Origin: a virus
IMG/VR virus record: IMGVR_UViG_3300047319_001872
Coordinates: 186,001-250,000 of that record
DNA length: 64,000 nucleotides
Reading direction: 5' to 3' (one strand)
Part shown: positions 30,921 to 49,396 of the stretch, piece by piece
How positions within the stretch are numbered: the stretch's first letter is position 1
How the letters are laid out: each line of letters starts with the position of its first letter
The notes under the pieces: model-generated
Database searches by the model: none
What the model was told of the DNA's origin: nothing
The model's input: the letters and a program-made list of their open reading frames with translations, nothing else
Made by a program: the position numbers and the translations under genes

Positions 30921-31994
30921 TTAATCCAGCGTAAAGGGAGTAGTCGGTGCCGTAAAGGCACTCGTGTAACGGGCGACATTGGAAACGCGCACTTCGTCCA
31001 TTTTACCGCCTGCCAAACCCAGGTTCAAACCATTGGTCCAGTTACCCACACACAGGGCGTTGGTATTTTGACCGAACGGCAGACTAGAGGTCGCGGTAGC
31101 GAGTGATACGCCATTTAACCACAAGGTGACCGTGGTGCCGTGCTTGGTGATCGCCACGTGATAACGGGTACCAGCCACCACATTAGACGTCACCTGGATA
31201 ATCGGTGAATTGGTGCTACCCAATGAAACGTAGAACTGACCGTTGTAGTGGTCGATATACGAACCCGTGCCCTTGGAGAAAACGACTTGAGGCGTAGCCG
31301 TGCTGGCCAGTGCCAGGAAGAACTCAATCGTGAAATCTCCCGTCAACTCCAGCTCAGGCGCATCGGGCGTCGTAACATAACTCAGGGCGTCATTTGAGGT
31401 GTACGAAGAAGTTCCGATCAACGGGCTGCTGGTGGTCAGCTGTGCCGAGCCGCCTGGCGTCATCGGGTGACCCGCTGCATCCGTAAAGACCGTGCTGCCG
31501 TTGCTGCCCTCAAAATGCATCAAGAGCACGGTCTTAGGTGGTTGCCAAGCGACGGTAATATCCGTCGAACCGTCCTCGTAGATCAACGAACCGCTCGCCT
31601 GCAAGGTGACAGTTTGGTTGCCTGCTGTGCCTTGTGGAGTAAAGCTCGGTGCTGAAATTTCTGAAGGAATGAAACCAAAATACTGACTCACAGCTGCCAG
31701 CGTGGCGGCCTTACTCGTACCCAACTGCACCGGTACAGGACCTGCAGGGCTGGCAGCCTCAGCAGCGAGTGTCAGCCGTTTATAGGTGACATCGACGCTG
31801 CCTGTAAAATTCGCGTAACTGCCCTGAGGGCCAGTGCCCGTCAGGGTGACCTTAGTATCAGCCCCATTCGGGAAACTACCGGTCGTCACGGCGCTTACTG
31901 TCACTTCGTTAGGAAGGTTCGGTGCTTGCGCATTGGAGGCATCAATCAGCGCAAGCAGATTCTGTACTGCGCTTTTTGTGGGGTCGATTTTCAT
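30921..31994 (-). CDS. virion module protein, B + LamG architecture, 357 aa
   Basis: The N-terminal half has the 'LLALIDASNA' opening and VDVTYKRLTLA signature of module B, the repeated beta-rich module of this region. The C-terminal half is LamG/concanavalin-like: LLMHFEG, LTGDFTIEFFLA, VTLWLNGVSLA and the ending MDEVRVSNVARYTSAF. LamG folds bind carbohydrates or proteins in phage fibres and bacterial adhesins. Surface exposure is inferred. The start is the ATG at 31994; a TTG four codons earlier is less likely. It is the last gene of the array in transcription order. Confidence 0.75.
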   Translation of the reverse strand: MKIDPTKSAVQNLLALIDASNAQAPNLPNEVTVSAVTTGSFPNGADTKVTLTGTGPQGSYANFTGSVDVTYKRLTLAAEAASPAGPVPVQLGTSKAATLAAVSQYFGFIPSEISAPSFTPQGTAGNQTVTLQASGSLIYEDGSTDITVAWQPPKTVLLMHFEGSNGSTVFTDAAGHPMTPGGSAQLTTSSPLIGTSSYTSNDALSYVTTPDAPELELTGDFTIEFFLALASTATPQVVFSKGTGSYIDHYNGQFYVSLGSTNSPIIQVTSNVVAGTRYHVAITKHGTTVTLWLNGVSLATATSSLPFGQNTNALCVGNWTNGLNLGLAGGKMDEVRVSNVARYTSAFTAPTTPFTLD

Positions 31995-32040
31995 TCGGGT
32001 CGCCAAAATAAGGAAAGGTCATAAAATGAACCTGTAGAAA

Positions 32041-32073
32041 ATGACGGCATAAAGGCAGAGCCGAAGCCCCACC
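32041..32073 (-). terminator. hairpin with TATGCCG motif
   Basis: GGTGGGGC pairs with GCTCTGCC (with wobbles) around TTCG, followed by TTTATGCCGTCATTT on the minus strand. It stands between the 180-aa gene and the 357-aa gene. Confidence 0.6.
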
Positions 32074-32092
32074 CCTACGAGCACTGAAGTGC

Positions 32093-32635
32093 TTAGCTTG
32101 CGGCGTCGAAGCCCGAGAGGTCCGTGACCGTAACGGCCGAGGACAGCGCGACTTGCGGAGCCTGCCAGGTCATGGCGATCGCTTGCAGCGAACCGTCCAC
32201 GTACAGCAGCGAACCCGCATTAGCCACCAGATCGAGCGTGGCTTGATTGCCGCTCTGTGCGCCCGAAAGCGGTGTACCCGGAGCCGCCGGATCTTCGAGA
32301 TGCAGTTCCGACTCCACGAGACCGAGCTGAGCAGCCAGCGCCGTCACGAGCGCAGCCGCCGTGGTACCGGTGGTCGCGGTGTAGCTATCGACCGGGCTGA
32401 GCACCGAGTCGTTCAGACCCCGGCGGGTGTAGTTGACCGAGACCGCACCTGTGTAGCCCTGGCCGCCAACGGCCGTCAGTGCTACCGTGGTGTTACGGCC
32501 GTCGCCCGTATCGGATTTGACGCTGGGTGCACCTGCAGTCACTTGCGCGTTCGTGATCGTCTGGCCGGTATTAGCAGCATTGACGAGCGCGAGCAGGTTA
32601 TCCAACGCCGACAAGCTGGTGTTGATTTTTGCCAT
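32093..32635 (-). CDS. virion module protein, B only, 180 aa
   Basis: A complete single module B: DNLLALVNAANTGQTIT, GRNTTVALTAVGGQGYTG, VSVNYTRRGLN, a helix of about 20 residues, then DLVANAGSLLYVDGS. This is one of 12 copies in the window. The module resembles beta-sandwich phage decoration or fibre repeats, but no known family was assigned. It follows a promoter-like site with a 5' leader hairpin. Confidence 0.75.
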   Translation of the reverse strand: MAKINTSLSALDNLLALVNAANTGQTITNAQVTAGAPSVKSDTGDGRNTTVALTAVGGQGYTGAVSVNYTRRGLNDSVLSPVDSYTATTGTTAAALVTALAAQLGLVESELHLEDPAAPGTPLSGAQSGNQATLDLVANAGSLLYVDGSLQAIAMTWQAPQVALSSAVTVTDLSGFDAAS

Positions 32636-32670
32636 TTCCGTTCCTTAAAGGAGAAGTGATCTACTGCACT

Positions 32671-32697
32671 GCGGGGCCCACATAAGAAGGACCCCGC
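32671..32697 (-). other. 5' leader hairpin
   Basis: GCGGGGTCC pairs with GGCCCCGC with a ~10-nt loop immediately after the CTATG signal. No T-run follows. It would lie at the 5' end of the mRNA of the 180-aa gene and may stabilise it. Confidence 0.45.
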
Positions 32698-32722
32698 ATA
32701 GGATGCAAGTATTTTTTTACTG
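32697..32722 (-). promoter_or_regulatory. candidate late promoter
   Basis: The minus strand reads CAGTAA, 15 bases, then CTATG (CATCCTATGCG in full). The CAGTAA begins one base after the stop codon of the 515-aa gene. Copies occur at 48832-48855 and 49426-49452. TATG is the core of phiKZ late promoters. It drives, by inference, the 180-aa gene. Confidence 0.5.
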
Positions 32723-32723
32723 C

Positions 32724-34271
32724 TTAATCTACCACAAATGGAGCAGCAGGTGGGATAAAAGTCGTCGTGTAGCGAGCCATGTTACTCAGGCGCAACTCAT
32801 CGATGCGGCCATTAAACAGCATGGCTGTACTACCGTTGAGGAATTGACCGATCCACAGCGGGTAGGTGTTGTTACCAAATGTTTGAGTACTGGTAACGGT
32901 TTGTACCAACACACCATCGACGAAACATTTCCAACTGTTGCCAGCGCGTACAAAGGCAAAATGCTGCCACGTACCCACTTTGGTACTGCTTGTATCAGGC
33001 GTACCCACGATGACACTACCGTCGGTCCCGAGGATGCGAACCAGGCCACTAGTGGACTGGATATACTGGTAACCTGATTGGGCGCTCGTGCCCTTGGACA
33101 AAATCATGCCGTTTTGAGTGACGTTGTTGTGCCAAGCCCAAAACTCAATCGTCAGATCACCCGTAAAATGCAAATCGGGCGCGTCACTCACAGCAAGATA
33201 TCCGGCACCCGATGGGAAGTAACCGGCACCAAATTTACCTCCAGCACCAGCTACTGCTGCACCATTGTTGGTAACGGTATGGCCGAGCACATCCGCGTAG
33301 GCCGAGGTGCCTGCATTGTCAAAATGCATCAGCAACTTCGTATTGGCTGCGGGACCGACGCCGCTTGCATTAGCAAAGCCAGGCAGATTCACTGTCGTCA
33401 CTGCTGTCGACAACACCACGGAATTCATCAGGTACACATTCGTGCCCGGCGCAAATACGTAGCTGTTCGGATCGACCACCAGCTGCAACTTTGTCGCGTT
33501 CGCTGCAACCGGACCATCCACCACATCCGTCGGATCAAGCGTCAAGCCGTATTGCGTGTTGATCTGAGGGATCAGCGCGCGAATGGTCGTAGCCGAACTA
33601 ATCGTGCCGAGCTTCCAGGTGTTATTGGTGCCACCTAGAAACGCGTTCGCAATGTCCGTGCGATTGTAATAGAGCTTGTACGTGCCTGAGTACTGCTGCA
33701 GCAACGTGCCGATGGGCGCCACCGTCACGTAAGTGTTACAGTTGATCTGTGAACTATCTGCAACGGGCGCGCTCACCGATAACTGTGACTGGGAGATGGT
33801 CTGCTTCGCGTCAGCTTGAATCAATGCCCACAAACCCGCCAAACCTCCTGTCTTAATCTGGAACTGTTTCTTCTGCATGACGAATGCAGAGACTTGACGC
33901 AACTGGCCTTGGGTCGATGACTTCTGCATCGCAAAGGCCGACACCTGACGCAGCGAGCCACTACTGGATAGCTTGGTCCACGTCACTGCGGGCATTGCCC
34001 GGAACTTTGCGCCGATGGCGTCCTGCGTCCATTGCAAGGCCATCACGCGCCGGATCGACATCGTGGGGTTGTCCTGCGACCACTGCAGTGCGGTCACCTT
34101 ACGCAACGTGACAGGCGTGGGTGAGCTGAACCACTGCACTGCCTGCATTTGGCGGAAATACGCGTTGATGTTTTGCGTCGTCCACACGACAGGGGCGGCT
34201 TGACGAACCTGGGCACTACTGCTCGTTCCTTGCCACACCAGTGGGGCGAAGTAGCGAATTGTTGTCGTCAT
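32724..34271 (-). CDS. virion module protein: 17-residue repeats + B + LamG, 515 aa
   Basis: Residues 9-144 are eight near-tandem copies of a 17-residue repeat ('A-x-x-W ... LR-x-V'). Residues 145-290 match module B: LWALIQADAKQTISQ, YKLYYNRTDIA, LIPQINTQYGLTL. The C-terminal part is LamG-like (LLMHFDN, LTIEFWAWHNN, GRIDELRLSNMARYTTTF). The repeat region probably forms a thin fibre or solenoid linking to other parts. The start ATG lies at 34271. It is the only B protein here with an N-terminal repeat extension. Confidence 0.75.
   Translation of the reverse strand: MTTTIRYFAPLVWQGTSSSAQVRQAAPVVWTTQNINAYFRQMQAVQWFSSPTPVTLRKVTALQWSQDNPTMSIRRVMALQWTQDAIGAKFRAMPAVTWTKLSSSGSLRQVSAFAMQKSSTQGQLRQVSAFVMQKKQFQIKTGGLAGLWALIQADAKQTISQSQLSVSAPVADSSQINCNTYVTVAPIGTLLQQYSGTYKLYYNRTDIANAFLGGTNNTWKLGTISSATTIRALIPQINTQYGLTLDPTDVVDGPVAANATKLQLVVDPNSYVFAPGTNVYLMNSVVLSTAVTTVNLPGFANASGVGPAANTKLLMHFDNAGTSAYADVLGHTVTNNGAAVAGAGGKFGAGYFPSGAGYLAVSDAPDLHFTGDLTIEFWAWHNNVTQNGMILSKGTSAQSGYQYIQSTSGLVRILGTDGSVIVGTPDTSSTKVGTWQHFAFVRAGNSWKCFVDGVLVQTVTSTQTFGNNTYPLWIGQFLNGSTAMLFNGRIDELRLSNMARYTTTFIPPAAPFVVD
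33840..34247 (-). repeat. eight degenerate 17-residue repeats
   Basis: Successive units such as APVVWTTQNINAYFRQM, TALQWSQDNPTMSIRRV and SAFAMQKSSTQGQLRQV keep exact 17-residue spacing. A hydrophobic residue and Trp or Met stand at positions 3-5 and an Arg at 15. The last unit loses the Arg. The DNA copies have diverged, so the array is old. Confidence 0.85.
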
Positions 34272-34281
34272 TCACTCCTCC

Positions 34282-35355
34282 TTAGTTAGTGGGTGTCAGT
34301 ACGAACTGAGTCTGGTTAATCTTCGCGCCTGTCCAGTTTGAACCATCCGGCGCTTTCGTCTGCCAAGGCAACTTTTGATTCAGTACCAGTCCATTGCTAT
34401 TGGCAAACTGGCCAAGCGGTGAAACGTTACTGGAAGCATCCGCAAAGCTCGCTGCAATCTTGGCGGGACCAGCCCCACTCGGTTGAAACGACAGTGTGGG
34501 TTGAACAGCCAGGACTTTCTGACTACTGTCATTAACGGTGACGCCCATCGTCACTGCCAGGGACTGGTTATCTGCCGGAGCCTGCGCATAGGGGCTAATG
34601 ACGGGCGGGTTTTGGTTAGCGGTATTGAGCACCGTCACCAGATCTGCTGCGCCGTTAGGTACCCATTCCGAGCCCGACGCGGCCGCCGTGCGCGACGCTT
34701 TGGCGCGAATCGGACCCAGTCGACCCGGCGTCGATGCATCCACGTCGAGAAAATAGAAGTCGCGATAGCCGCGTGCGTAATTCGCGCTCCCGGTGGACGC
34801 GCCTCCAAAGGTAATGTAGCCCGTGCTGTTAAAGACAGCGGACGTCACCGTACCGGAATTGATCAAAACGCCGTTGCCATACACCTGGAACGTCAGTGCA
34901 CTACGATCGATAAAGACCTCAATGTAGATTTCACCACCCACACCCACCATCCCTGCTGCGATCAGATGTGACTCATCGAGCAGCGAAGTCCAGCTACCGA
35001 AGGATGTGCTGTTGGTCACGATGACCACATGGGGTGCACCGAGCGTGTTATTCACGATCAGCTTCGTGCGGAAACCAAACCAATACTGCGTTGCCACGCT
35101 CCAGTCCTGCACAGCTGCGGTGGGTACAAAGAGCGCCCCGCATTGACCGGACGAATTAGCGGCGTTCGACAAGAAGCCATCGGCCGTCACGGAGAAGATG
35201 TTGCTGGGGGTAGTGTTATTAACGTAGGTGAGCGGCTGACCGACATTGCCAGTATACTGGTTGTAGATCGTGTTGCCGTTATAACTCGATCCCGCGGCAC
35301 TCAGTGTCATCCCCACTGGCGCATTCTCAAAATGCCACAAATCGTGAAGGGCCAT
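34282..35355 (-). CDS. virion module protein, A type, 357 aa
   Basis: Belongs to the five-member A family: it starts MALHDLWHFENAP, contains the strand-rich body with GYRDFYFLDVDAS and GRLGPIRAKAS around residue 200, and ends with a beta region (WTGAKINQTQFVLTP). No LamG part is present. The function is unknown; location among fibre-like module proteins suggests a virion surface component. Start codon ATG at 35355. Confidence 0.75.
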   Translation of the reverse strand: MALHDLWHFENAPVGMTLSAAGSSYNGNTIYNQYTGNVGQPLTYVNNTTPSNIFSVTADGFLSNAANSSGQCGALFVPTAAVQDWSVATQYWFGFRTKLIVNNTLGAPHVVIVTNSTSFGSWTSLLDESHLIAAGMVGVGGEIYIEVFIDRSALTFQVYGNGVLINSGTVTSAVFNSTGYITFGGASTGSANYARGYRDFYFLDVDASTPGRLGPIRAKASRTAAASGSEWVPNGAADLVTVLNTANQNPPVISPYAQAPADNQSLAVTMGVTVNDSSQKVLAVQPTLSFQPSGAGPAKIAASFADASSNVSPLGQFANSNGLVLNQKLPWQTKAPDGSNWTGAKINQTQFVLTPTN

Positions 35356-35370
35356 GTTCGTTACTCTCTG

Positions 35371-36420
35371 TTACGGGGTGAGGGTCGCGACCATCGCCGC
35401 CAACGACTGGGGTGTGAAGGGCGTGCCATCCGGTGCTTTCTCGAGCACAAACGCGTTCTGATTCCAGTACATCTGGGCGCCGTTCGGATAGGTAATTTGC
35501 TTACCATTCACGGACTGGCCGTTATACGAAACACTCGCCTGTGGGGCGAAGATGTAACTCGCCGTGCGCTGGCCCGACACGTCCGCTTTCGCAGCGAGAA
35601 TACTCTCGCCTGCAATCAGGCCCGCATTCGAGAGCTTGAACTGCAACGGGTCCATGGTCGCGGGCTCTGTCAGCAGCGGTGCATTTTGAGACCCGGCCGT
35701 TGTGCCAAGCGGCGTCGACAGGTCGACCAACGCCGTGCTGCTATCGCTGGAGGTCCAGTTCGGTGCCGTCACGCTGGCCAAAGCGGCAGGCGTAACATCC
35801 ACCGGACCGAGGCGATTACATTGCGTGGCATCCTGGGTGTCATCGATGAAGTACACATCGCGCAGGTACCAGGTGTAAGTAGCTGAAGGATTGTTACAGC
35901 CCCATACCAACCAGGCGTTGCCGTCCGCCGACACGAACGCATTGAAGTCAAAGAACGTGCTCGACACTTGCACCCCGTCGATCCACACCACGATCTGGGT
36001 GTTGGCACGATCAATCATTACCTCGATGTACTGGGGGGTGTTTAGTGCCAGCTGCGTATTCAGCACCAGGGTCTGCTTAGTGCCTGCTGTGTTCTGTAAA
36101 TACAGCACCGGGACGGACAGGCTGTTATTATTGACCTGAAACCGCATCCCGATAAAGCTGCGCGGCGCGCTAAAAACGCTGAGGTTCTGATAGGGGATGG
36201 AAATGAGCGGATTGTAGGTCCCGTAATTCGTGTTCGGATACGGGTTAGTGGCGCCAATGCACGTCAGCCAGTTCGCCCAGCTGCCGGTCCCTTTGATCAC
36301 GGTTCCGTAGTTAGTGTAATAGTTGGTGACCACAATATCGCCGCGCAAGTAGTTAAGCGCCGTGGCACCTGCCGTGTAAGGAGGGATATTGTCGAAGCCC
36401 CAAAAATCTCGGATAGCCAT
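35371..36420 (-). CDS. virion module protein, A type, 349 aa
   Basis: Same layout as its neighbour: MAIRDFWGFDN start, LRDVYFIDDTQDA and NRLGPVDVTPAA, then APNWTSSDSSTALVD. It ends in a beta-rich tail with PLQFKLSNAGL and APDGTPFTPQSL. It differs mainly in short insertions. It is transcribed from the unit that starts after the terminator at 36449-36487. Confidence 0.75.
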   Translation of the reverse strand: MAIRDFWGFDNIPPYTAGATALNYLRGDIVVTNYYTNYGTVIKGTGSWANWLTCIGATNPYPNTNYGTYNPLISIPYQNLSVFSAPRSFIGMRFQVNNNSLSVPVLYLQNTAGTKQTLVLNTQLALNTPQYIEVMIDRANTQIVVWIDGVQVSSTFFDFNAFVSADGNAWLVWGCNNPSATYTWYLRDVYFIDDTQDATQCNRLGPVDVTPAALASVTAPNWTSSDSSTALVDLSTPLGTTAGSQNAPLLTEPATMDPLQFKLSNAGLIAGESILAAKADVSGQRTASYIFAPQASVSYNGQSVNGKQITYPNGAQMYWNQNAFVLEKAPDGTPFTPQSLAAMVATLTP

Positions 36421-36448
36421 CTTTAAACTCTCTTGATGATAACGAACA

Positions 36449-36487
36449 TAAAAACCCCGACACCCTCCCTGAGGAGAGCGTCAGGGC
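36449..36487 (-). terminator. intrinsic terminator
   Basis: CCCTGACGCTCTCC pairs with GGAGGGTGTCGGGG (wobbles) around TCAG, followed by TTTTTATG on the minus strand. It ends the 358-aa gene's unit. Confidence 0.75.
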
Positions 36488-36500
36488 TCTCGTGCCGCTA

Positions 36501-37577
36501 CTAGGTGGTCGACACGGGCTGAACGATCAACTGCGTCGCATTAAAGCGCGCATCACTCCACGCATTGCCACTCGGGTCCGTCGTCTGCACACCCGCCAGA
36601 TCCCGACCGTAATCCATCGTCGTATCGGTGAAACTGTAGTTGGGCAGATTCTTCGTGGCTGAACCGTTATTCAACTGTGCCGTGACTTGCGCCGCTGCCG
36701 TCACGCTTGCCGCCATCTTGTACTGCACCGCAATCATGCCTGCGCCTGCAGGTGCGGTCGACTGATACGTCACCGTAATCGGGTCGTTGGTCGGAGCATT
36801 CGACTGCGTCGGCGCGGGCGACGGTGTAGCGCTGTAGCCGGTCTGGAAATCCAGCAAGGCGGACTTGCCGTCGCTTGACGAATAGTTTGGGGCGGTCACG
36901 GCCGCGTACTGTGCGACCGCGGACTGAATAGGACCCAGTCGCGTATTGGGTAGCGTTGCGTCGCCGTCGATGAAGTAGAAGTCCTGCAGCGAGAAGTTGC
37001 AGGAGTTCGTTGTCACTGCGTTCGAGCCAAATACCAGATACGTAAAACCAGTCGCCAGCACGGCCTTATCGATGATCTTCAACCCATCGACCCAGGCCGT
37101 GTACTGACTGTTGGCGATGTCGAGCATCACCTCCACGTACTGCGTCACATTCACGGTCCGACTGAGCTGCGTCTCGTTCACCAGCGAGGTCGGTGCAACC
37201 GTCGCCGAAGAAGCCGTCCCAAATACCGATGAGGTGCCAGGTGCGGGAATCGCTGAGCTCCAGGTGCGAAAACCAATGTAAGCTTTGGTCGCGCCACTTT
37301 GCAACAAAGGAATATCGGCAAGCGCCACGACCAGTGCCTGAGCCTGCGAGGTGCTATTGCCAAATCCCAGTCCGCCACCACGATAAGTGCCACCCGACGC
37401 ACCTGCCACGACGCTATTGATCACGCAGTTTGACGCACCAGCGCGCAGAATCAGCGTACCCGGATTACCGGTGAGCTGATTATACGCATTGTTCGGTGTG
37501 TACGCAGCGATCGCAGTCAGCGGGATGTTGGATGCGTTGGCAATGTGATCGTACGTCCACAAGGCTCGCAAAGTCAT
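36501..37577 (-). CDS. virion module protein, A type, 358 aa
   Basis: Family A: starts MTLRALWTYDHIAN, contains LQDFYFIDGDATLPNTRLGP, APNYSSSDGKSALLD and a C-terminal part (VQYKMAASVTAAAQV, then WSDARFNATQLIVQP). The start ATG is at 37577. A terminator follows its stop. Confidence 0.75.
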   Translation of the reverse strand: MTLRALWTYDHIANASNIPLTAIAAYTPNNAYNQLTGNPGTLILRAGASNCVINSVVAGASGGTYRGGGLGFGNSTSQAQALVVALADIPLLQSGATKAYIGFRTWSSAIPAPGTSSVFGTASSATVAPTSLVNETQLSRTVNVTQYVEVMLDIANSQYTAWVDGLKIIDKAVLATGFTYLVFGSNAVTTNSCNFSLQDFYFIDGDATLPNTRLGPIQSAVAQYAAVTAPNYSSSDGKSALLDFQTGYSATPSPAPTQSNAPTNDPITVTYQSTAPAGAGMIAVQYKMAASVTAAAQVTAQLNNGSATKNLPNYSFTDTTMDYGRDLAGVQTTDPSGNAWSDARFNATQLIVQPVSTT

Positions 37578-37603
37578 GTTAATCTCTCTTCAAAGAAACT
37601 GGG

Positions 37604-37658: not shown

Positions 37659-39332
37659 TTAGTCGATCACAAAGGGCGCGGAAGGCGGGGTGAAGTTCGC
37701 GGTGTAGCGTGCGATGTTACTCACCCGCAGTTCATCGATGTAGCCTGGGAACTGCGAAGCCGTATTGTACTGGTTGCCACCGATCGTCCACGTACTGCCC
37801 GACAGACCAAAGGTCAGTGCCGACGTCAGAGTGCCTTGGGCCACCCCGCCGATGTAGCCTGTATAGACACCATTGGCGTACACCACAGCACAATGCTGCC
37901 ATTTGTTGAGCGTAAAGGCGGCGGCCGGGGCCAGTGTCTTCCAACCCGAGCCGTCAGTCAGGTAAATCCCTAATCCCTTATCAGACTGCTGACCAATTGA
38001 GGTTTGGCCTGTAGTGGTATTAGCAGTCTTCGAACTGAGAATGGTCGTGTCGCCCAGTGCTGCGGTCCGATAAAGCCAGAACTCAACCGTCATCGCGCTA
38101 CCGAGCACCATCGTCGCATCGGAAGCAACCGAGAGGTTACCCGTGGTGCTCGAGTTATACGACTTGCTCCCCATGGCCACCTGACCCGTGGTGAGTACAC
38201 CATTGCCGTTCGATGTCCAGGTCCGACCTGTGTCATCGACGAAACTTTCCATGTGCATCAAGACCACGGTGTTGAGGGTCTTCGGCGTGAGGATTGCGCT
38301 CGACGCATTGATCTTTGCCGGTGTCCACAACCCACCGTCAGGCGCCTTACGTTGCACACCCCACTTTTGGTTGAAGAGGTTCGTGTTGGGTGGCACGACA
38401 ATTTTACCCGCAGCCAGCGTGTTCGATGCCTGGCTAAAGGATACATCGATCGAATTCGACGCTGAATCACCGATCAGGGTGAGCTGTGGCTGCACGGCGA
38501 TGATGGGCACATTCGCTGCCACGCTGGTGCTTAGGTTCGCAGTCACAGGCTGGTTGTTCGCCGGAGCTGACGCACTCGGCGTGGTGACCGGCGGGTTCTG
38601 CAAGGCAGTTGTCAATGCCGTGGGCAAATCCGCTGCACTATTGAGTGTCCAGTCCGTTCCAGCGATATTCGAAAGACCCGCGTGCGATGAACGAATCGGA
38701 CCCAGTCGTACCGTATCGGTGCTATCAAAATCCAAAAAGTAGAAATCCCGATAACCCCGCGCAGCATTGGCCGTTCCTACTGTACTACCGGTTCCAAACA
38801 CACCGTAACCCGTCGCCGGAAAGGCACTGGCGGAGAATGTCGTCGAACGCACCAGATTACCATTCACATACAGCCAGTACGTGAGCGCCACCGAATCAAC
38901 GATAAGCTCCACATAGAGCTCGGTATTAGCTGGAGCGACCAGATCCGCTTCCGAGATCCAGATCAGCAACGTCGCGGTCGCAAAGCCTGCGGTGGTGATG
39001 AACACTCGGCCCGGCGTGGAGCCGGTCACTGCTTGACTGGATTTGGTTCGAAAACCGATACCCCACTTGGTGGCACCGCTCATGTTCAGCGCTTGGGCGA
39101 GCTTAAACCAAATCATGCTGCCGTTGCCGCTCGAGTTATTCGTCGAGGTAGCAAAGCCATTTGCGTCCACCGCCAGCGTACTGCCACTGTAAGTGTAGGT
39201 GCAGCCTGGGTTTCCGGTGTAGTAGTTGTAAACGTTGCTCGGCCCCGTGGTCGAGGTGAGGTCAGTCGTGCCGGTGAGCAAACTCGTACCCACTGGCGCA
39301 TTATCAAACGACCACAAGTCATGGATTGCCAT
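37659..39332 (-). CDS. virion module protein, A + LamG, 557 aa
   Basis: The first ~340 residues follow the A plan (MAIHDLWSFDNAP, YRDFYFLDFDSTDTVRLGPI, TDWTLNSAADLPTAL), followed by a LamG domain (VVLMHMESFVDD, MTVEFWLYRTAA, YTGYIGGVAQG, and the ending YIDELRVSNIARYTANF). Adding LamG to an A backbone shows the modules can be exchanged. It probably sits on the virion surface and might contact receptors. Confidence 0.75.
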   Translation of the reverse strand: MAIHDLWSFDNAPVGTSLLTGTTDLTSTTGPSNVYNYYTGNPGCTYTYSGSTLAVDANGFATSTNNSSGNGSMIWFKLAQALNMSGATKWGIGFRTKSSQAVTGSTPGRVFITTAGFATATLLIWISEADLVAPANTELYVELIVDSVALTYWLYVNGNLVRSTTFSASAFPATGYGVFGTGSTVGTANAARGYRDFYFLDFDSTDTVRLGPIRSSHAGLSNIAGTDWTLNSAADLPTALTTALQNPPVTTPSASAPANNQPVTANLSTSVAANVPIIAVQPQLTLIGDSASNSIDVSFSQASNTLAAGKIVVPPNTNLFNQKWGVQRKAPDGGLWTPAKINASSAILTPKTLNTVVLMHMESFVDDTGRTWTSNGNGVLTTGQVAMGSKSYNSSTTGNLSVASDATMVLGSAMTVEFWLYRTAALGDTTILSSKTANTTTGQTSIGQQSDKGLGIYLTDGSGWKTLAPAAAFTLNKWQHCAVVYANGVYTGYIGGVAQGTLTSALTFGLSGSTWTIGGNQYNTASQFPGYIDELRVSNIARYTANFTPPSAPFVID

Positions 39333-41144: not shown

Positions 41145-41180
41145 GATTCCCTCTGTCAAAAAGCTTAATGCATATTCCAG

Positions 41181-41213: not shown

Positions 41214-41558
41214 TTACGCTTGCCGAGGTGTTTCGTTGTACTGCAAAACCAGAAGATTGTGTGGACCATTGGCCCACGGCAACTCCAGCACCAGCGCGTA
41301 CTTGAACAAAGCGTTCGAGGGCAGGTGCGTGTGGTTCACGCCGTTAAACCTCACCTCGGCTCCAGCCAACGTATAAGGCTCTTCTTCTTTGTCGGTCCAT
41401 TGGGCACGATGCTCGCCCTTGTCATGGGTGCTCAGAGATGCCGCCAGGAGCGTCACATCCGTCGCACTCAGTGTACCGAGTGGTACTTTTGCCAGCACAT
41501 CGCCATCGCTGGAAAAGTCCGTGAAGAAGAGATAGTTCGGCCAAAAAGTCGTTGCCAT
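41214..41558 (-). CDS. virion module protein, C only, 114 aa
   Basis: The protein matches the C-terminal part of the B-C proteins: YLFFTDFSSDGDVL, then AGAEVRFNGVNHTHL, NALFKYALVLELP and LLVLQYNE at the end. AAGGATGTGAG precedes the ATG. It lies 13 bases after a gene encoding only module B, so the pair looks like a split B-C gene. Confidence 0.7.
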   Translation of the reverse strand: MATTFWPNYLFFTDFSSDGDVLAKVPLGTLSATDVTLLAASLSTHDKGEHRAQWTDKEEEPYTLAGAEVRFNGVNHTHLPSNALFKYALVLELPWANGPHNLLVLQYNETPRQA

Positions 41559-41571
41559 CTCACATCCTTTC

Positions 41572-42072
41572 TTAGAAGCCCGTCAGCACGTTCGAGTAGA
41601 ACAGATTACTGATGTTAGGCAAGGGGGCCAACACGCAGTCAAACGAACCGGTGTACCCGTAGGAGGTCGACAGTGCGGTCAACGTCACATGGGTGTTACC
41701 ATCACCGCCGGTAGTCGTCGTCGCGTCAGCGATGTCGTTCATCGTCAGCGTAAAACCATACTGGTCACGAATCGTGTTCAGTACGGTCGAGACGTCATTA
41801 CTGGGCGCTGCCACCAGCAGCACCGGACTGAAGTTCGCCCAGGCACCCAGATCGAGTCGATCGTAGTACAGCGTCATCTCACCCCGAAGCGGCGCTCCGG
41901 CGTTCATCGACACGTGGACCTTGGTGTTCTTGCCATTAGCCACTCCGGCCTGCTCAGCAGTCGTGGTCGGTTTTAACGCCACCACGGTAAACTGGCTGGA
42001 CGTCACCGTCACGCCGGAGGCTGCACTGATTAACGAGGCGAGGTCGTCGCTCGAATTTTGATACAAACTCAC
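41572..42072 (-). CDS. virion module protein, B only, 166 aa
   Basis: Module B: DLASLISAASGVTVT, MTLYYDRLDLG, VLNTIRDQYGFTLTMNDI, then TALSTSYGYTGSF. The GTG start at 42072 has GGGAGG 5 nt upstream; an ATG two bases upstream is out of frame and stops at once. The stop comes just where B-C proteins continue into module C, which is encoded by the next gene. Confidence 0.7.
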   Translation of the reverse strand: MSLYQNSSDDLASLISAASGVTVTSSQFTVVALKPTTTAEQAGVANGKNTKVHVSMNAGAPLRGEMTLYYDRLDLGAWANFSPVLLVAAPSNDVSTVLNTIRDQYGFTLTMNDIADATTTTGGDGNTHVTLTALSTSYGYTGSFDCVLAPLPNISNLFYSNVLTGF

Positions 42073-42084: not shown

Positions 42085-42972
42085 TTAATTAAAGTGCAGA
42101 TAGAACGCGCCCTGAAACCAGGACCCGGCTACCGCCGTGATCGTTACCACATACGCAAACTTGTTGCTATTCGCGCCCGGCACTGAAGCCGAAGGCAACG
42201 TGTAGCGCGACACCAGCAGATTACCCAAACCACCGGACGTGGTGGTGGAATCCTGGCCGCTCAGATTCAGACTCGGTAGGCTCTGTTGCAGAAAAGCCAA
42301 AATGCCTGCCAACGCACTGCCTGCCAGGAGCCAGTTTGAAGGGGTCGGTGTGGAGGATGAGCTCAGTGCTAAAAGCTGCGTACGAATCTTCGAACAATCG
42401 AGACCGTAGCTCAACACATCAGCCTGGGGTTTACGGCCACCGCCAAAGGTGTTCCCGCCCGGATACAGCTTACCCGTCAGTACCGGGGTCGTGATGACCT
42501 GGCTCATGTACGGCGCACCTTGCGTCCACTTGAAAGTAAATGACCCTTCGTAGCACAAGGACGTCGACAGCATCGTAACGGTGTACGAGTTGCCCGAGGT
42601 AAAATTCGAGGCAGTGAAATCGCTCGTCGTCAGCTCGGTGCCGTACTTGGCATTGAAACACTGACAGAACTGCGCGGGTGTCATGCTCGTTGAGCCGATG
42701 TAGTTATCGAGCGTCAACGTCATGCTGCGGAAAAGATTAGCCAGGTTAATGCGCCGGTAATACACCGTTTGCTTACCGATATACTGACCGACATTACCGG
42801 GCAAGGACAGGAGCACCAGGCTCGTGTCCTGAATCTGGCCGGAGCCAGGTGTTACGACAGTTGGCACCAACGAGCGTAGCATCGCGGTCGTCAGAGGCAC
42901 CTTCAGACCGGGATTCGACGTGTTAATCAACCCGAGCAAGGTGTTCAACTGCGTGTCAAGAAATGGGTACAT
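42085..42972 (-). CDS. virion module protein, B + C, 295 aa
   Basis: Module B (LNTLLGLINTSNPGLKVP, TVYYRRINLANLF, CFNAKYGTELTTSDFTASN) then a C module with YGLDCSKIRTQLLAL and the ending FQGAFYLHFN. The 'LHFN' ending marks this module across the array. No enzymatic motif was seen. Confidence 0.75.
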   Translation of the reverse strand: MYPFLDTQLNTLLGLINTSNPGLKVPLTTAMLRSLVPTVVTPGSGQIQDTSLVLLSLPGNVGQYIGKQTVYYRRINLANLFRSMTLTLDNYIGSTSMTPAQFCQCFNAKYGTELTTSDFTASNFTSGNSYTVTMLSTSLCYEGSFTFKWTQGAPYMSQVITTPVLTGKLYPGGNTFGGGRKPQADVLSYGLDCSKIRTQLLALSSSSTPTPSNWLLAGSALAGILAFLQQSLPSLNLSGQDSTTTSGGLGNLLVSRYTLPSASVPGANSNKFAYVVTITAVAGSWFQGAFYLHFN

Positions 42973-42988
42973 TAAACACCTCGTTTCG

Positions 42989-43009
42989 GGAGCGGGTCAA
43001 CCCCGCTCC
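42989..43009 (-). terminator. probable terminator or processing hairpin
   Basis: GGAGCGGG pairs with CCCGCTCC around a 5-nt loop. Only a weak T-run follows. It separates two B-C genes. Confidence 0.45.
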
Positions 43010-43022
43010 GTATGCTCTCGAC

Positions 43023-43916
43023 TTAGAAGTTGTTCGGGTCGAACGGATCGTTGTAGTGCAGGTACAGCGTGCCCGAAGGCGTCGTCTGATTCGCTGCCAA
43101 CTGGATCGCCATCACGTACTTGTAGGCCGGGTTGGTCGGGTTATTCACCGCATCATTCAGGCCGTTCGAGACGATGGTGGCCCCCGTCAAGTTCCAGGTC
43201 GTGTTAGCGCCCGTGTCCACCCACAGCGACTTACCTGCGCCCACATCCACGGCTTGAATGGCCGCCAACACGGCATCGAGCTGAGTCTGGGTCATCGCGC
43301 CGGGCGCATACGACAGGAACGTCGACTGCCAGGACGTGAAGTCGTACGGATACAGATACGCCGGGCCGTACACTGCCGTGGCGGGCGGGGCTGACGCATC
43401 GGCCACCGGATAGTTAATACCCGGCAAGTTCGTGGTCAAAGCAGCCGCATCAATCGGCACGCCGCCCGGCACCACATTGAGCATCACGCTACCTTGCCAG
43501 CCGAGCGAGTTCGGGTCCGCCGAGAGCTGCACTTGACCCGTACCATCGCCATTGAGCGTAATCGGCAGGTTCTGCAAGTCCCCTTGCACGAACTGGATGC
43601 CCAGGTAGTACGCGAGCTGGGGCAGGATGTCCCAGGTTGTTTGCGGATTGCTCACGGCCAGATCCGTGACGCCGTGCAGATTGGCCAGCTGGGCCAAATC
43701 CAGGCGATTATAGAGAATCACCTGCGAGCCTTGATAATTCGCTGAAGCCGCCGTCACTTTCACCGCAGTGTTGCGATCGCTCGACAAACCTTGCCAGGTC
43801 CCCGATACCACTTTCGGATTCGAGAACGACAGATCGGACGCCGTAAACGTCGTCGCATTGGCGGCGTTGATCGCGTTCAGCAAATCAGTCAAGGATGGGA
43901 GTTGAAAAGTCGACAT
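43023..43916 (-). CDS. virion module protein, B + C, 297 aa
   Basis: Module B: LTDLLNAINAANATTF, VILYNRLDLAQLAN, ILPQLAYYLGIQFVQGDL, DPNSLGWQGSV. Module C: YPYDFTSWQSTFLSY, LTGATIVSNGLN, YKYVMAIQLA, TLYLHYND. It shows both modules in full. Confidence 0.75.
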   Translation of the reverse strand: MSTFQLPSLTDLLNAINAANATTFTASDLSFSNPKVVSGTWQGLSSDRNTAVKVTAASANYQGSQVILYNRLDLAQLANLHGVTDLAVSNPQTTWDILPQLAYYLGIQFVQGDLQNLPITLNGDGTGQVQLSADPNSLGWQGSVMLNVVPGGVPIDAAALTTNLPGINYPVADASAPPATAVYGPAYLYPYDFTSWQSTFLSYAPGAMTQTQLDAVLAAIQAVDVGAGKSLWVDTGANTTWNLTGATIVSNGLNDAVNNPTNPAYKYVMAIQLAANQTTPSGTLYLHYNDPFDPNNF

Positions 43917-43925
43917 ATCTCACCC

Positions 43926-44897
43926 TTAAACGTTGTAGTGCATGATGATGCGGCCTGCGCCCCACGAAGCACCGGCAGGCAGATCCAGATACAGCGCACG
44001 ATTGAAGTACTTGCTGTCCGCTTCCGGCAACGCCGCACTCGGCAGCGTCACGTTCGTGAACTTAATCCCGTACAGACTGTATGGGGTCGAAGCCGGATTG
44101 GTCAGGTTGTACTGTGTAGTAATCGCGGCGTTGATCGAAGCGAGCAGCGAGTTATGTACCGTCGCACCTGTGCCAGTTTGGGTGCCCAGGCCGTAGCTGG
44201 TCAAGAAAACAAGGACTTGAGCCAAAGTTTGGCTCGACGCCACACCTGCCTGGTTAAGCGCATTGGTCCAGTCGATCGAGTAGAAGTCCAGATCCGGCAC
44301 GTAGACGCCGTTATCCACCACATTGCGACCCCCAGGGAACACGCGGGCATTTTCCAGACTCGTCACCGAGATCATCGACGCGATGTCCTGCGGGGCCTGC
44401 ACCCAGTAAAGGGTAAAGCTACCGATAAACCCAGGGCTACCGGTCGCGGCTGCGACAGTCGCCGCACTGTTACGCGTGCCTGCTACCAGACCAATGGCTG
44501 GCACGGCGTTATTGTTACCGACAGGGAGATTGGCATCGACGATGTCGGCGGTAGTCAGCGTCAGACCGTACTTTGCATTGATCGACGGCAACAGATCCGA
44601 GATCTTAAACGGCGAACCAGCATTGGGCGAGTACTTGTAAATGACGATCGGCAAATTGCGGAACAAAATACCGAAGTCCAACCGACGATACAGCAGCGTG
44701 GTGTTACCCACGTATTTCGTCCCAGCCTGCGCGGTGACCTTGATCGACGTGTTCTGAATGTTGCCCCCCGTCGGCGTCACCGCAGTGGGCGTACCGTACA
44801 GGGCATTCGTCGTGGTCAGCGGCACAGGCAGAGAGGGATTTGCTTGGTTGATCAAATCAACCAGCATCTGCATGGACTGCTTGGGATAAAGAGACAT
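43926..44897 (-). CDS. virion module protein, B + C, 323 aa
   Basis: Module B: MQMLVDLINQANPSLPVPL, TLLYRRLDFGILFRN, LLPSINAKYGLTLTTADIV. Module C: LDFYSIDWTNALNQA, ISLYGIKF-like strand and the ending AGRIIMHYNV. It resembles its neighbours closely. No catalytic motif. Confidence 0.75.
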   Translation of the reverse strand: MSLYPKQSMQMLVDLINQANPSLPVPLTTTNALYGTPTAVTPTGGNIQNTSIKVTAQAGTKYVGNTTLLYRRLDFGILFRNLPIVIYKYSPNAGSPFKISDLLPSINAKYGLTLTTADIVDANLPVGNNNAVPAIGLVAGTRNSAATVAAATGSPGFIGSFTLYWVQAPQDIASMISVTSLENARVFPGGRNVVDNGVYVPDLDFYSIDWTNALNQAGVASSQTLAQVLVFLTSYGLGTQTGTGATVHNSLLASINAAITTQYNLTNPASTPYSLYGIKFTNVTLPSAALPEADSKYFNRALYLDLPAGASWGAGRIIMHYNV

Positions 44898-44907
44898 GGT
44901 TCAAGCC

Positions 44908-45780
44908 CTAACGATTTTCGAGGACGTTGTAGTGAAAGTACATGGCGCTGCCGTAGAAGACACCAGCCCAAATCGTACCGAGAATCACTACCCGATCAAA
45001 ATTCTTGTTACTGTCGGCGATCTGTGAGGTCGCGTAATCTCCCGCGCCCGTGTAGGCGTAGCGCGCATCCGGAAAGTAAGGAATCCCCACTTTCGCACAA
45101 GCTGCACTGAGCGTCGCGTAGTCCGCAATGCCGTTGTAGCCCACGAACTGGTTAAGAGCGTAGTACTTGATCGCCAGCGCATCACGCATTGACGTGAAGT
45201 CGTAGTTCCACAGATAATCCCGACCATTGAGTCGATACGGGACATGGTTCACCACAGCGGCGCTATAGTCGTCAAACATCGTGTTCAACCGATTACTCGC
45301 GATCACCACATTCAGGTGCGGCTTATCGTGGGTAATCGTGATGTCGACTGAGCCTTTCCACCCGAGCGAGTCATCGGCCGCTACCAGCGTCACCGTACTC
45401 GAACCGAGGAGGGGTGGCGTGGTGATGTCCTGCGGAACAAAATCTTCCTCTTGCAGGAACGTCCCCAAGGACGCATTCATCAACGTCGCGATGCTCGCCA
45501 GCGTGAAGTTATCCAGCGAGGCCAGCGAGACCCGGCCTGCCAGATTGGAGAGGGGGACGCGGGTGTACTGAATCACCGCGTCACCATAGTAGCCTCGACC
45601 TGGCACCCCTGTGACGTCCACCGTGGTATCGTAGCCCACCGCGCCGTCAGGCGCAGCTTGCGGCGTACCGAAGATCAGGTTCTTATCCGAGAAGATCGGA
45701 TTCGGGGTGAACGTCTCATTGAGCAGGATAATCAGCTGCTCTCCGGAGAGAGTCGTCGGCTGTGACGTAATACCTGTCAT
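44908..45780 (-). CDS. virion module protein, B + C, 290 aa
   Basis: I use the ATG at 45780; a GTG one codon earlier is possible. Module B has GEQLIILLNETFTPN, VIQYTRVPLSNLAG and DDSLGWKGSVDIT. Module C has YLWNYDFTSMRDALA and ends AMYFHYNVLENR. Confidence 0.75.
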   Translation of the reverse strand: MTGITSQPTTLSGEQLIILLNETFTPNPIFSDKNLIFGTPQAAPDGAVGYDTTVDVTGVPGRGYYGDAVIQYTRVPLSNLAGRVSLASLDNFTLASIATLMNASLGTFLQEEDFVPQDITTPPLLGSSTVTLVAADDSLGWKGSVDITITHDKPHLNVVIASNRLNTMFDDYSAAVVNHVPYRLNGRDYLWNYDFTSMRDALAIKYYALNQFVGYNGIADYATLSAACAKVGIPYFPDARYAYTGAGDYATSQIADSNKNFDRVVILGTIWAGVFYGSAMYFHYNVLENR

Positions 45781-45795
45781 CACTCTCTCCTTGGA

Positions 45796-47340
45796 TTAAT
45801 CAACGTAGAACTGATCGGTGATCGGCGTGAAGAGGGCCGAGTACCGGGCGACATTACTGATGCGGAATTCCTCGAGGTACGCTTGCGCGGGGGCAGTCGT
45901 CACGAAAGGGTTACCGCCGATTGACAACATCCCTGCGTTGTTGCCCCAGGTCTTGCCGGTCGCCGTCGCGGTGGCTTGCGGTACACCGTCCACGTAAAGC
46001 GTCCACACGCCTGCTTTACTGACCAGCGCGATATGTTGCCACTGATTGAGCACCAACTTGTTAGCGGCCACGGTGAGCGTCTGGCTCCCCGGCGTAATAG
46101 CGTCCTGATCCGCATAGACCACCAAGGTCCCGTCGCTATACATCTGAATGCGACCACCCGAGCTGGCGTTATCCGGCGCCTTCATGGCCAACACCTGGAC
46201 GGCGTTGTTCGCGAGCAGATACTGATCGAACTCGAGGGTGAAGTCCGAGGTGAGGCGCAGCTCAGCAGAGTCCGCCGTGGTCACGTTCGCACCTGCAGCC
46301 AACGCCGCCAGCGAAGAACCACCCCAGAGCGACTGTGCGGTGGAGATCGCAGCCGGTGCATTGGCGTTGAGGACCCGCGACGGATAGGCCTGGTCATGCA
46401 AAATGGTCGAGCCGTTGATGCCGTCAAAGCGCAACAGCATCGCGGTCTTCACCGGCGGCAAGAGGTCCGTATTCGCATACGGGTCGATGAGACCATAATG
46501 CAGGAACATGTAGCCCGAGTAGCCGAGCGAGTACGAGTTGTTCAGCTTGACAATCAGCACGTACTGGTAGGCCGGGTTGGGGGTACAAAGCGAGTCACCC
46601 AGCGGCACGAAGTCCGACACCAGTCCGTTGTACACCACCGAAGCACCTTGCAAACTGTACTGGGCGGCCGCAACGTTGGTCCAGTTGTTACCCGTCAGTG
46701 CTTTCAAATCCAGCGCGAGCTGCGTCAGGTCATTGCTCGAGGTATTGTAGTTCTGCAGATGCGCCTGGTACGGCGTCATGTCGCGGAAGTACGAATACAG
46801 CTCACCGAAGGGCTTACCCGCGTCGGTGTTCGGATACAAGAGACCCGAGAGCGTCGTGCCGGTGGCCACCGTGGCCAGATCGTAATTACCGGCCTGGAAC
46901 GGTAGCGTCACCGAACCAATCCAGCCCAACGAATTCGGCTGCGCAGTCAAGGTGACGGAACCCGAACCATCCGAGCCGATCACCAGCGCCGTGTTGTCGT
47001 TCAGGTCGCCTGCGACAAAGTTCAGACCGAAGTTCGCATTGAGCACGGCCCAGAAATCCGCGACCGTGGTCCAACCGTTGCCGAAGATCGGCTGGGGCAA
47101 GAGGATCGCCAGGTCCGCCAGATTCAGACGTCGATAGTAAATCGTTTGCGCGCCCTGGTACGGCGCATTGACGTCGTTGACCGTAATCAGCAGCGACGTG
47201 TTTTCAATTCCCTGGGGGTCCTGATAGACGACAGGATTGCTAAAGGTGTACTGACTGGGCACGAGTGTCACGCCCTTGTTCTGAGCCGCAATCGCAGTCA
47301 GAATCGCAGTCAGTGGTGCGGGATAAAGCGTTTGCGCCAT
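45796..47340 (-). CDS. virion module protein, B + C + LamG, 514 aa
   Basis: The protein contains three modules in order: B (TAILTAIAAQNKGVTLVP, TIYYRRLNLADLAILL, AQPNSLGWIGSVTL), C (SYFRDMTPYQAHLQNYNT to GYMFLHYGLID) and LamG (TSDFTLEFDQYLL, YLEEFRISNVARYSALF). This is the only member with B, C and LamG together and shows how LamG is added at the C-terminus. Confidence 0.75.
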   Translation of the reverse strand: MAQTLYPAPLTAILTAIAAQNKGVTLVPSQYTFSNPVVYQDPQGIENTSLLITVNDVNAPYQGAQTIYYRRLNLADLAILLPQPIFGNGWTTVADFWAVLNANFGLNFVAGDLNDNTALVIGSDGSGSVTLTAQPNSLGWIGSVTLPFQAGNYDLATVATGTTLSGLLYPNTDAGKPFGELYSYFRDMTPYQAHLQNYNTSSNDLTQLALDLKALTGNNWTNVAAAQYSLQGASVVYNGLVSDFVPLGDSLCTPNPAYQYVLIVKLNNSYSLGYSGYMFLHYGLIDPYANTDLLPPVKTAMLLRFDGINGSTILHDQAYPSRVLNANAPAAISTAQSLWGGSSLAALAAGANVTTADSAELRLTSDFTLEFDQYLLANNAVQVLAMKAPDNASSGGRIQMYSDGTLVVYADQDAITPGSQTLTVAANKLVLNQWQHIALVSKAGVWTLYVDGVPQATATATGKTWGNNAGMLSIGGNPFVTTAPAQAYLEEFRISNVARYSALFTPITDQFYVD

Positions 47341-47348
47341 GACTAATC

Positions 47349-48179
47349 CTAGCTCTGGTTATAGTGGAAGAGCGCCGCGCCTACGTAGGTGCTACCCACC
47401 ACGTTTTTCTGAACCACGACCCGCTCAAAGTTGGTGTTCGCGCCAGGATACTTCGAAGTCGCGTAATCGGTCACCGTACTCGCTGCAGGGGTGGGCCAGT
47501 CGGTGTAGCCGAACTGTTTCTGGATCGCTGCTTTGAGCAACGCCAGATTACTCCAGGTACCGCTTGCACTCACGGCCAACGCATTGGCTGAAGCCGCGGT
47601 GCTGTAGAACGGCGACATATCGACATTCCACATCTGCATGCCGATGTCAAGCTTGTTAAGCGTCGGGTCAATCTTATCGTAGTTCTGTGTGTCCAAACTC
47701 ACACTGCGGATCACCGAAGAGAGCTCCGGCCAGATCCGGTGAAATTCCAACACCATCGAGCCAGTGTAGCCGAGTGAAGTCGGTTTGGCGATAATGTTGA
47801 TATTGACTGCGGCACCTTCATCGACGCGCGCAATATTAGTGTCAACAACGTCGGCCTGGGTGAAGTTCAACCCAAGGTACGCATTGACCGTGTCGAGCAT
47901 GTTGTACAGCGTATCGGCACCCACACTGCGCATGACTGGAATATAGTCGTAGGCTTGCGTGAGATTAATGCGCTGATACTTGAAATCCTGATAACCGTGA
48001 TACACTGTCCCCAGCACCCCAACTGTCGGGACGATAGAAGACTTGCCGTCCGAGGCACTCGGGTCCAGACGTGCGCCACCCAGATACAGGTTACTTTTCG
48101 TAACCGGTGTCGGAAGATGCGGATTTGCCTGATTAATGAGTGCCAACAGCCGGTCGGAAGCGACTGGCACAAAAGACAT
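47349..48179 (-). CDS. virion module protein, B + C, 276 aa
   Basis: Module B: DRLLALINQANPHLPTPV, FKYQRINLTQAYDYI, MLDTVNAYLGLNFTQADVV. Module C: MQMWNVDMSPFYSTA to AALFHYNQS. It is adjacent to the terminator at 48195-48223. Confidence 0.75.
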   Translation of the reverse strand: MSFVPVASDRLLALINQANPHLPTPVTKSNLYLGGARLDPSASDGKSSIVPTVGVLGTVYHGYQDFKYQRINLTQAYDYIPVMRSVGADTLYNMLDTVNAYLGLNFTQADVVDTNIARVDEGAAVNINIIAKPTSLGYTGSMVLEFHRIWPELSSVIRSVSLDTQNYDKIDPTLNKLDIGMQMWNVDMSPFYSTAASANALAVSASGTWSNLALLKAAIQKQFGYTDWPTPAASTVTDYATSKYPGANTNFERVVVQKNVVGSTYVGAALFHYNQS

Positions 48180-48194
48180 ACGTACCCCTTAACG

Positions 48195-48223
48195 AATAAA
48201 GAGGGGACCCGAAGGTCCCCTCT
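48195..48223 (-). terminator. intrinsic terminator
   Basis: GAGGGGACC pairs with GGTCCCCTC around a UUCG-type loop, followed by TTTATTC on the minus strand. It ends the 176-aa gene. Confidence 0.75.
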
Positions 48224-48251
48224 CGTTTTAGGTCTGAACCAACAAAACGAC

Positions 48252-48782
48252 TTAGGCCGGTTGGACGTACACGAGACCCGTGAGCGTCGGCGACGTAATG
48301 ACGCTCGACAGCGGGATGTCGTTGGACTTGAGCGTGAGGGTCATCACGCCTTCGTACACAACCGAATCCGCCGTGGCAGCGATCTGGAAGTTGTGCTCTT
48401 CGTTCGGCACACCGCCAGTGAAGGTCGGCAGCGGGCCGTCGGTGTAGTCAGCAGCCGTCAGGTTGATCTGGTATGCGGCGTTCACTTCCGGAATCATGTC
48501 CGAAATGTTCGCTGCATTGCCCAGCGCGTAGACGGTGCTGCGGGCGCCCGGAATCGTCGACAGGTTCACGCGGTTGTAGTTCACCACCACGCTGCCGGTG
48601 TAGCCCGAACCTGCTTGCGCCGACACGGTGATTTGCGTGTCCGGGTTCGGATTGGTGCCCGTCATGGCCGTCGGAATCCCGAAGGAGATGAGAGCAAGCG
48701 TCAGGGCACTGGCGTTGTCGTGGTTGATCTGGTCCAGAAGGACCTGATCAGGGTCTTTGGTAAAGTCAAGTTGCCATGCCAT
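48252..48782 (-). CDS. virion module protein, B only, 176 aa
   Basis: Module B with DQINHDNASALTLALIS, VVVNYNRVNLSTIPG, MIPEVNAAYQINLTAADY, ADSVVYEGVM and the ending PTLTGLVYVQPA. It follows a candidate late promoter and carries no C or LamG part. Confidence 0.75.
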   Translation of the reverse strand: MAWQLDFTKDPDQVLLDQINHDNASALTLALISFGIPTAMTGTNPNPDTQITVSAQAGSGYTGSVVVNYNRVNLSTIPGARSTVYALGNAANISDMIPEVNAAYQINLTAADYTDGPLPTFTGGVPNEEHNFQIAATADSVVYEGVMTLTLKSNDIPLSSVITSPTLTGLVYVQPA

Positions 48783-48831
48783 TTTCGATACCTTCTGGAA
48801 GGTTAATGGGGTCGAAGAAAAAACACATTCG

Positions 48832-48855
48832 CATAGGATGCGCCAACTTTTACTG
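48832..48855 (-). promoter_or_regulatory. candidate late promoter
   Basis: CAGTAA, 13 bases, CTATG on the minus strand (with CATCCTATGCG as at 32.7 kb). As at 32.7 kb, CAGTAA begins one base after the stop codon of the preceding gene. It lies about 50 bases before the ATG at 48782. Confidence 0.5.
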
Positions 48856-48856
48856 C

Positions 48857-49396
48857 TTACACAGGGGGCTGGACGTAGACCAGACCACTCAGCGTAGGAC
48901 GAACAATCACCGAACTTAAGGGAATTAAGGCCCCCGGTAATTGAACCTGGAACTCATAAGTCGAGTCCAGCCACGCTAAGGAATTGGCACCGCGCGCAGT
49001 CAGCTGGTAGGTGCTTTGTTCTTCGCTGTAGACTGTGTCTTCAACCTCGTCGGGCGTCAGATTAAGGCCCAACGCTTCGTTGATTACATCCAACGAAGCA
49101 TGAATGGAAAACGGAAATGCATCGATGACAACGGGCTTAACCCAACCTGCAGGCAGCAACGACAGTACGCTTAATGGTAGACGCCTGTAATGGATGTCCT
49201 CCGGCCCCACGTAGTCAGTCCCTGCTACCGGGGTCAGCGTCACCTGAGTATTCCGTCCCTGAGCATCTGTGTGCTCTTGGGGTAGTCCGTACGTGAAATC
49301 AACGTGCTCAACCCGATGCAAACCAGGATTGTAGACGTTAATCAAAGCGGTCAAACGATCGCTACTCAATCCACCGTAAGGCTTAGGTGTGGCCAT
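48857..49396 (-). CDS. virion module protein, B only, 179 aa
   Basis: Module B: SDRLTALINVYNPGLHR, RNTQVTLTPVAGTDYVG, IHYRRLPLSVLSLLPA, INEALGLNLTPDEVED, and the ending RPTLSGLVYVQPPV. It is the first gene of the array in transcription order and follows a promoter-like signal and hairpin. Confidence 0.75.
   Translation of the reverse strand: MATPKPYGGLSSDRLTALINVYNPGLHRVEHVDFTYGLPQEHTDAQGRNTQVTLTPVAGTDYVGPEDIHYRRLPLSVLSLLPAGWVKPVVIDAFPFSIHASLDVINEALGLNLTPDEVEDTVYSEEQSTYQLTARGANSLAWLDSTYEFQVQLPGALIPLSSVIVRPTLSGLVYVQPPV

Follow-up and report, generated by a model that had tools for sequence, protein, structure and literature searches.

DUF7941 is an uncharacterised protein family that forms the largest paralog set in the Salmonella jumbo phage SPN3US and related phages. 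In SPN3US the set, termed Paralog family B, has been assigned to the head and is found in tailless particles (PMC5694885; PMC5105663); head proteins were identified there by an abundance in tailless particles equal to that in virions, and Paralog family B was counted among them (PMC5694885; PMC10052503). The SPN3US array comprises 17 tandem DUF7941 genes (115393–133154, 17.8 kb), which correspond to gp138–154 by our own mapping of the reversed RefSeq numbers. In phiKZ, by comparison, family copies are few (gp126 and gp127, with a weak gp143). Here we describe a related array in a 64,000-nucleotide stretch of viral DNA (the window), positions 186,001 to 250,000 of the 313,315-base IMG/VR virus record IMGVR_UViG_3300047319_001872. 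The array lies at 30921–49396 on the minus strand and consists of 18 open reading frames (genes 1–18; W01–W18), each built solely of modules A, B, C and LamG, with additional repeats in gene 3. Like its SPN3US counterpart, it is a large tandem array of DUF7941 (here putative) virion-protein genes, 12 of the 18 carrying the family. We give roughly even odds to the reading that these genes encode a DUF7941 structural chassis from which exchangeable lectin tips are presented on the virion, most likely on the head exterior.

The modular make-up of the array is far beyond chance. Module hidden Markov models (HMMs) were built from the copies in the window and match them by construction (86–317 bits per module), and Pfam profiles provided independent scores. 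A single Pfam family, DUF7941 (PF25613), spans both B and C and scored 38 to 176 bits in 12/12 B genes (E 1e-9 to 1e-51; curated cut-off 27 bits), and the five LamG domains matched PF13385 at 58.8 to 72.8 bits (E 9e-16 to 4e-20; curated cut-off 27.6 bits). No Pfam family was found for module A, which resembles phrog_2448. An earlier, sequence-only reading of the window had counted seventeen genes, one short of the actual number; the gene omitted may have been gene 9 (41214–41558, 114 aa), which consists of C alone (C model 135 bits; phrog_1037 positions 187–283, E 5e-8). Its module counts of 12 B, 5 A, 7 C and 5 LamG proved exact on recount, and every architecture that it named was recovered with the module HMMs and Pfam. 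Profile comparison showed B to be composed of two related sub-repeats (B1–B2 similarity supported with probability 91%, E 1e-6), with C comparing only weakly to them as a third copy (probability 23% and 1%). Recent duplication at the DNA level within the array was ruled out; only short imperfect repeats were seen, so the paralogs are old.

Structure prediction followed by Foldseek, a check proposed with the sequence-only reading, was run with AlphaFold2 on gene 4 (A; from 16 sequences) and gene 12 (B-C; from 30 sequences). Gene 4 (34282–35355, 357 aa; phrog_2448 E 1e-10) yielded a model (predicted local distance difference test, pLDDT, 76.7; predicted template modelling score, pTM, 0.79) whose PDB matches were concanavalin-A-like folds (best-scoring example given, 8q2a at E 3e-6), among them plant lectins, bacterial carbohydrate-associated domains, alginate lyases and receptor-binding domains of this fold. 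Foldseek template modelling (TM) scores were ~0.3–0.34 over the whole query and 0.4–0.55 by target for single-domain targets. Among viral models it matched proteins from many phages, either virion proteins or uncharacterised ones; one is a virion structural protein from Achromobacter phage AchV4, and some phages have multi-copy sets of such proteins. At the sequence level, the LamG profile weakly touched A (12–15 bits), A had zero matches among PDB sequences, and a pattern search of genome contigs returned no cellular relatives. These data support a predicted jelly-roll, concanavalin-A-like lectin-type fold for the N-half of A, with a further predicted domain at the C-terminus. Since the A model matches such lectins, the array is predicted to encode about ten lectin-fold domains. 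In other tailed phages, relatives of the A fold come as several paralogs in one phage, as in Serratia phage JS26 (BFVD A0A7G8AMI0–AMI3 and AMI5), their paralogy being judged from neighbouring accessions and from names only.

The model of gene 12 (43023–43916, 297 aa; PF25613 E 1e-51) had confident parts in an uncertain arrangement (pLDDT 79.6, pTM 0.48). Its best structural match was phiKZ gp127 (Foldseek E 1.8e-6, TM 0.70 by target), which was also the only significant PDB sequence match for B-C (profile E 6e-18). Profile and predicted fold thus place gp127 and the array B-C proteins in one family; phiKZ differs in its few copies, in the tail location of gp127 and in that no lectin fusion was seen.

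To follow the modules between genomes, six phages were compared: this one, its nearest isolate, Burkholderia phage FLC9 (host Burkholderia glumae), which a review places with the Chimalliviridae as an unclassified genus (PMC12388082), and four IMG/VR genomes (G001–G004). The sequence-only reading had called such an array unusual for one genome, which needs qualifying in that the same array is present in all five relatives. In FLC9, gp307–gp326, annotated as hypothetical proteins, share the gene order and module set bar a few genes, at ~50–84% identity. In FLC9, two B-LamG genes take the place of one; gp314 reads A-LamG-halfB-LamG-halfB-LamG; gp315 is an additional A-LamG gene; and in gp310 (L006:5054–8284), the ortholog of gene 3, the single LamG has given way to a pair of LamG domains plus a glycine-rich stretch (phrog_4474). 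LamG (five matches) and A were found only in the array within the whole record of this phage. A thirteenth DUF7941 gene lies outside it (record 70058–70489; L022:4050–4496), groups with gene 17 and with its counterparts in FLC9 and G002.

Across the six phages, B modules clustered by gene position. The LamG tree required 7 changes of host type (minimum 3; shuffled mean 15.2) and is therefore far from random, so that most copies follow their gene and moves are exceptions. Nevertheless, an approximately unbiased (AU) test rejected a single LamG clade for each host type (B-borne, A-inserted and A-tail; p-AU values of 3e-5, 1.6e-4 and far lower); the groups were defined by architecture, yet the tests were run after a quick tree had been seen, and the phages are few and related. 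The careful tree left out the C-terminal LamG of FLC9 gp310 (long branch), and the LamG of G002:15415 and the first LamG of gp310 fell outside it, being too divergent for the LamG model. Individual moves could be traced. The LamG of an FLC9 A-LamG gene paired with that of a G002 B-LamG gene (75% identical, support 100/99), the third LamG of FLC9 gp314 paired with the LamG of gene 3 (70%), though the ortholog of gene 3 is gp310, and the B-borne LamGs of G003 were nested in the A-inserted clade. A mosaic is seen in gene 15 (45796–47340, 514 aa, B-C-LamG; PF25613 E 4e-47, PF13385 E 8e-17), whose B, C and LamG are 95, 98 and 97% identical to those of G002 and 95, 96 and 60% identical to those of G001. 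The combinatorial evolution suggested by the sequence-only reading is supported by this comparison, in which LamG changes host genes while B stays with gene position.

Taken together, a conserved chassis carrying changeable lectin tips argues for the display of binding domains. B, together with C where it follows B, would provide a conserved structural base, or chassis, by which every product is held on the particle, probably at the head exterior. With LamG placed terminally or as an insertion, and A also of predicted lectin type, the particle would present several outward-facing carbohydrate-binding tips. The chassis modules would be inherited with gene position. Recombination among related phages would replace LamG modules and shift them from gene to gene, altering glycan specificity while leaving assembly undisturbed. 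This display reading is supported by SPN3US gp155 (L007:21170–23347), in which DUF7941 is joined to the tail fibre adhesin domain Gp38 (PF05268, E 7e-18). A search of the present genome with Gp38 gave zero matches, with an uninformative control. Together with the concanavalin-A-like folds of LamG and, by prediction, A, gp155 makes the adhesin-like part of the earlier description (fibre- or adhesin-like) plausible; the word fibre goes beyond these results. A fuller version, in which about ten lectin domains on the DUF7941 chassis coat the capsid, are reshuffled by recombination and set the surfaces to which the particle adheres, we put forward tentatively and regard as rather doubtful.

A capsid display of this kind has parallels, since binding domains are presented on capsids by T4 Hoc and others. 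The proposed outward display is common to both; the modules are unrelated, and the array has many paralogs versus one Hoc. In SPN3US, the hexamer centres bear an unidentified Hoc-like outer protrusion at ~260 copies (PMC7552025). Two family members, gp141 and gp160, are abundant in the SPN3US virion, where densitometry gives an estimate of >300 copies; we infer a link between these proteins and the protrusion. Apart from the gp155 fusion, the SPN3US array differs from the present one in its partner domains: neither LamG nor A was found in SPN3US, and its array has a three-gene cassette with other partners. This cassette, a DUF7941-X gene followed by two genes, occurs three times in gp145–153 (L007:9519–19657), those of its genes that were tested being related to phrog_1062.

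Several observations weigh against a head-exterior lectin display. The only solved DUF7941 relative, phiKZ gp127, is located at the outer baseplate periphery (PDB 9xqd), and no other PDB entry matches B-C better in structure or significantly in sequence. The products could accordingly be peripheral fibres or whiskers of the tail baseplate, with LamG and A as receptor-binding tips; the adhesin domain of gp155 would fit this placement, as would a second SPN3US tailless mutant, which gave similar head and tail lists and moved one family member, gp237, to the tail (PMC10052503). Against this stand the inclusion of SPN3US Paralog family B in the head protein list and the relationships of the genes themselves. 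Gene 12 and SPN3US gp143 are reciprocal best matches (35% identity, E 6e-52), as are gene 16 and gp144, and gene 2 groups with gene 1 and SPN3US gp160 in the B-module tree (support 88/83), so that genes 12, 16 and 2 are closest to array or head members, whereas identity to gp127 is weak (24%). The deep branches of the B-module tree with SPN3US and phiKZ were unresolved and did not separate head from tail. The array also adjoins phiKZ-type internal-head and gp101 genes. On this evidence a baseplate location appears unlikely. As the family is found in the head in SPN3US and in the baseplate in phiKZ, neither location can be transferred to the array with certainty; moreover, with LamG and A lacking from SPN3US, the head assignment leaves the lectin carriers and A genes uncovered.

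A head location need not be an external one. The abundant SPN3US members were tagged "Head ejection?" by their describers, that is, as lying inside the capsid (PMC5694885), and with internal head genes nearby, the products might be packaged with the DNA and ejected into the host, where their lectin folds would act on glycans of the cell wall or the cell interior. This we consider improbable: no Family B member is among the listed processed SPN3US head proteins (PMC5694885), the gp155 fusion is to an outward-type adhesin, and turnover of lectin modules better fits contact with varying surfaces, none of these points being decisive. The lectin-type modules might also bind nothing. Many LamG folds do not bind sugar, LamG_3 domains being frequently uncharacterised, and LamG and A could be a ligand-free structural cement whose moves reflect neutral recombination in a redundant paralog family. 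The ends of the LamG cassettes are more alike at the DNA level than the core (mean identity 0.61 at the ends versus 0.46 overall); this may aid exchange, and could permit neutral exchange, but may equally reflect structural constraint. However, no comparable movement from one gene position to another is seen for the chassis modules, and it is the lectin modules that diverge more: they are less conserved than B/C in comparison with G002 (p 0.03; 0.0005 with the N-half of A) and FLC9 (p 0.004; 0.0003 with the N-half of A). The corresponding difference from G001 was not significant (p 0.11), and the three comparisons are not mutually independent. A neutral cement seems to us very improbable. Separately, the array was considered as the target of a diversity-generating retroelement, and this was rejected, as no reverse transcriptase (RVT_1) match was found in the 313-kb record, which may be incomplete.

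Surface adhesion roles have already been suggested for LamG in jumbo phages (PMC8541153; PMC7824862), so the function proposed here is not new in kind. The present additions are the combination of a DUF7941 chassis with lectins, a fold prediction for A, and moves of modules traced between genes. The literature searched contained no phage paper naming DUF7941, the one paper to do so being on a symbiont genome, which is weak evidence of novelty, as subscription papers were mostly outside the search. Fusions to interchangeable lectins, and to Gp38 in SPN3US, give this family a testable function, that of presenting binding modules. Were these presented on the head, tail fibres would not be the only means by which jumbo phages vary their adhesion, as capsid proteins would serve this purpose too, and a lectin-coated capsid would be the capsid-borne counterpart of tail-fibre tip exchange.

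The remaining genes of the array, all on the minus strand, are as follows. At the low-coordinate end, gene 1 (30921–32006, 361 aa) is B-LamG (PF25613 E 1.3e-9, PF13385 E 9e-16) and gene 2 (32093–32635, 180 aa) is B alone (PF25613 E 9e-18; FLC9 gp309 84% identical). Gene 3 (32724–34271, 515 aa; PF25613 E 9e-21, PF13385 E 7e-18) is repeats-B-LamG, its N-terminus containing about seven repeats of 17 residues (self-identity 34% at period 17 versus 3–10% elsewhere, and 18% at 34). The A genes continue from gene 4 with gene 5 (35371–36420, 349 aa; module HMM, with a weak 12-bit LamG-profile match within A) and gene 6 (36501–37577, 358 aa; module HMM, phrog_2448 E 2e-6), followed by gene 7 (37659–39332, 557 aa), which is A-LamG (module HMM, PF13385 E 4e-20), and gene 8 (39420–41159, 579 aa), in which LamG is inserted between the A halves (module HMM, PF13385 E 5e-18). 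Beyond gene 9, gene 10 (41572–42072, 166 aa; PF25613 E 5e-25) is B alone, whereas B-C is the architecture of gene 11 (42085–42972, 295 aa; E 2e-38), gene 13 (43926–44897, 323 aa; E 2e-42), gene 14 (44908–45783, 291 aa; E 6e-26) and gene 16 (47349–48179, 276 aa; E 6e-36). The array ends with two B genes, gene 17 (48252–48782, 176 aa; E 3e-31) and gene 18 (48857–49396, 179 aa; E 1e-23).

Just upstream of the array, on the same strand, is a homolog of phiKZ gp101 (49789–51150; tblastn to PHIKZ101, 29% over 99%, E 1e-54). This protein corresponds to SPN3US gp64, a proposed neck or head-tail joining protein (PMC5105663). Further on, at 54953–60073, three relatives of phiKZ-type internal head proteins adjoin one another (phrog_2497), the largest of which (57788–60073, minus strand) contains PF12699 (E 2e-42). 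Elsewhere in the window, a 626-aa protein (18213–20093) combines an N-terminal dihydrofolate reductase with ~460 residues lacking a Pfam match, and an AAA ATPase with a BCS1_N domain (13992–15416; PF08740 E 4e-12) resembles the mitochondrial BCS1 type.

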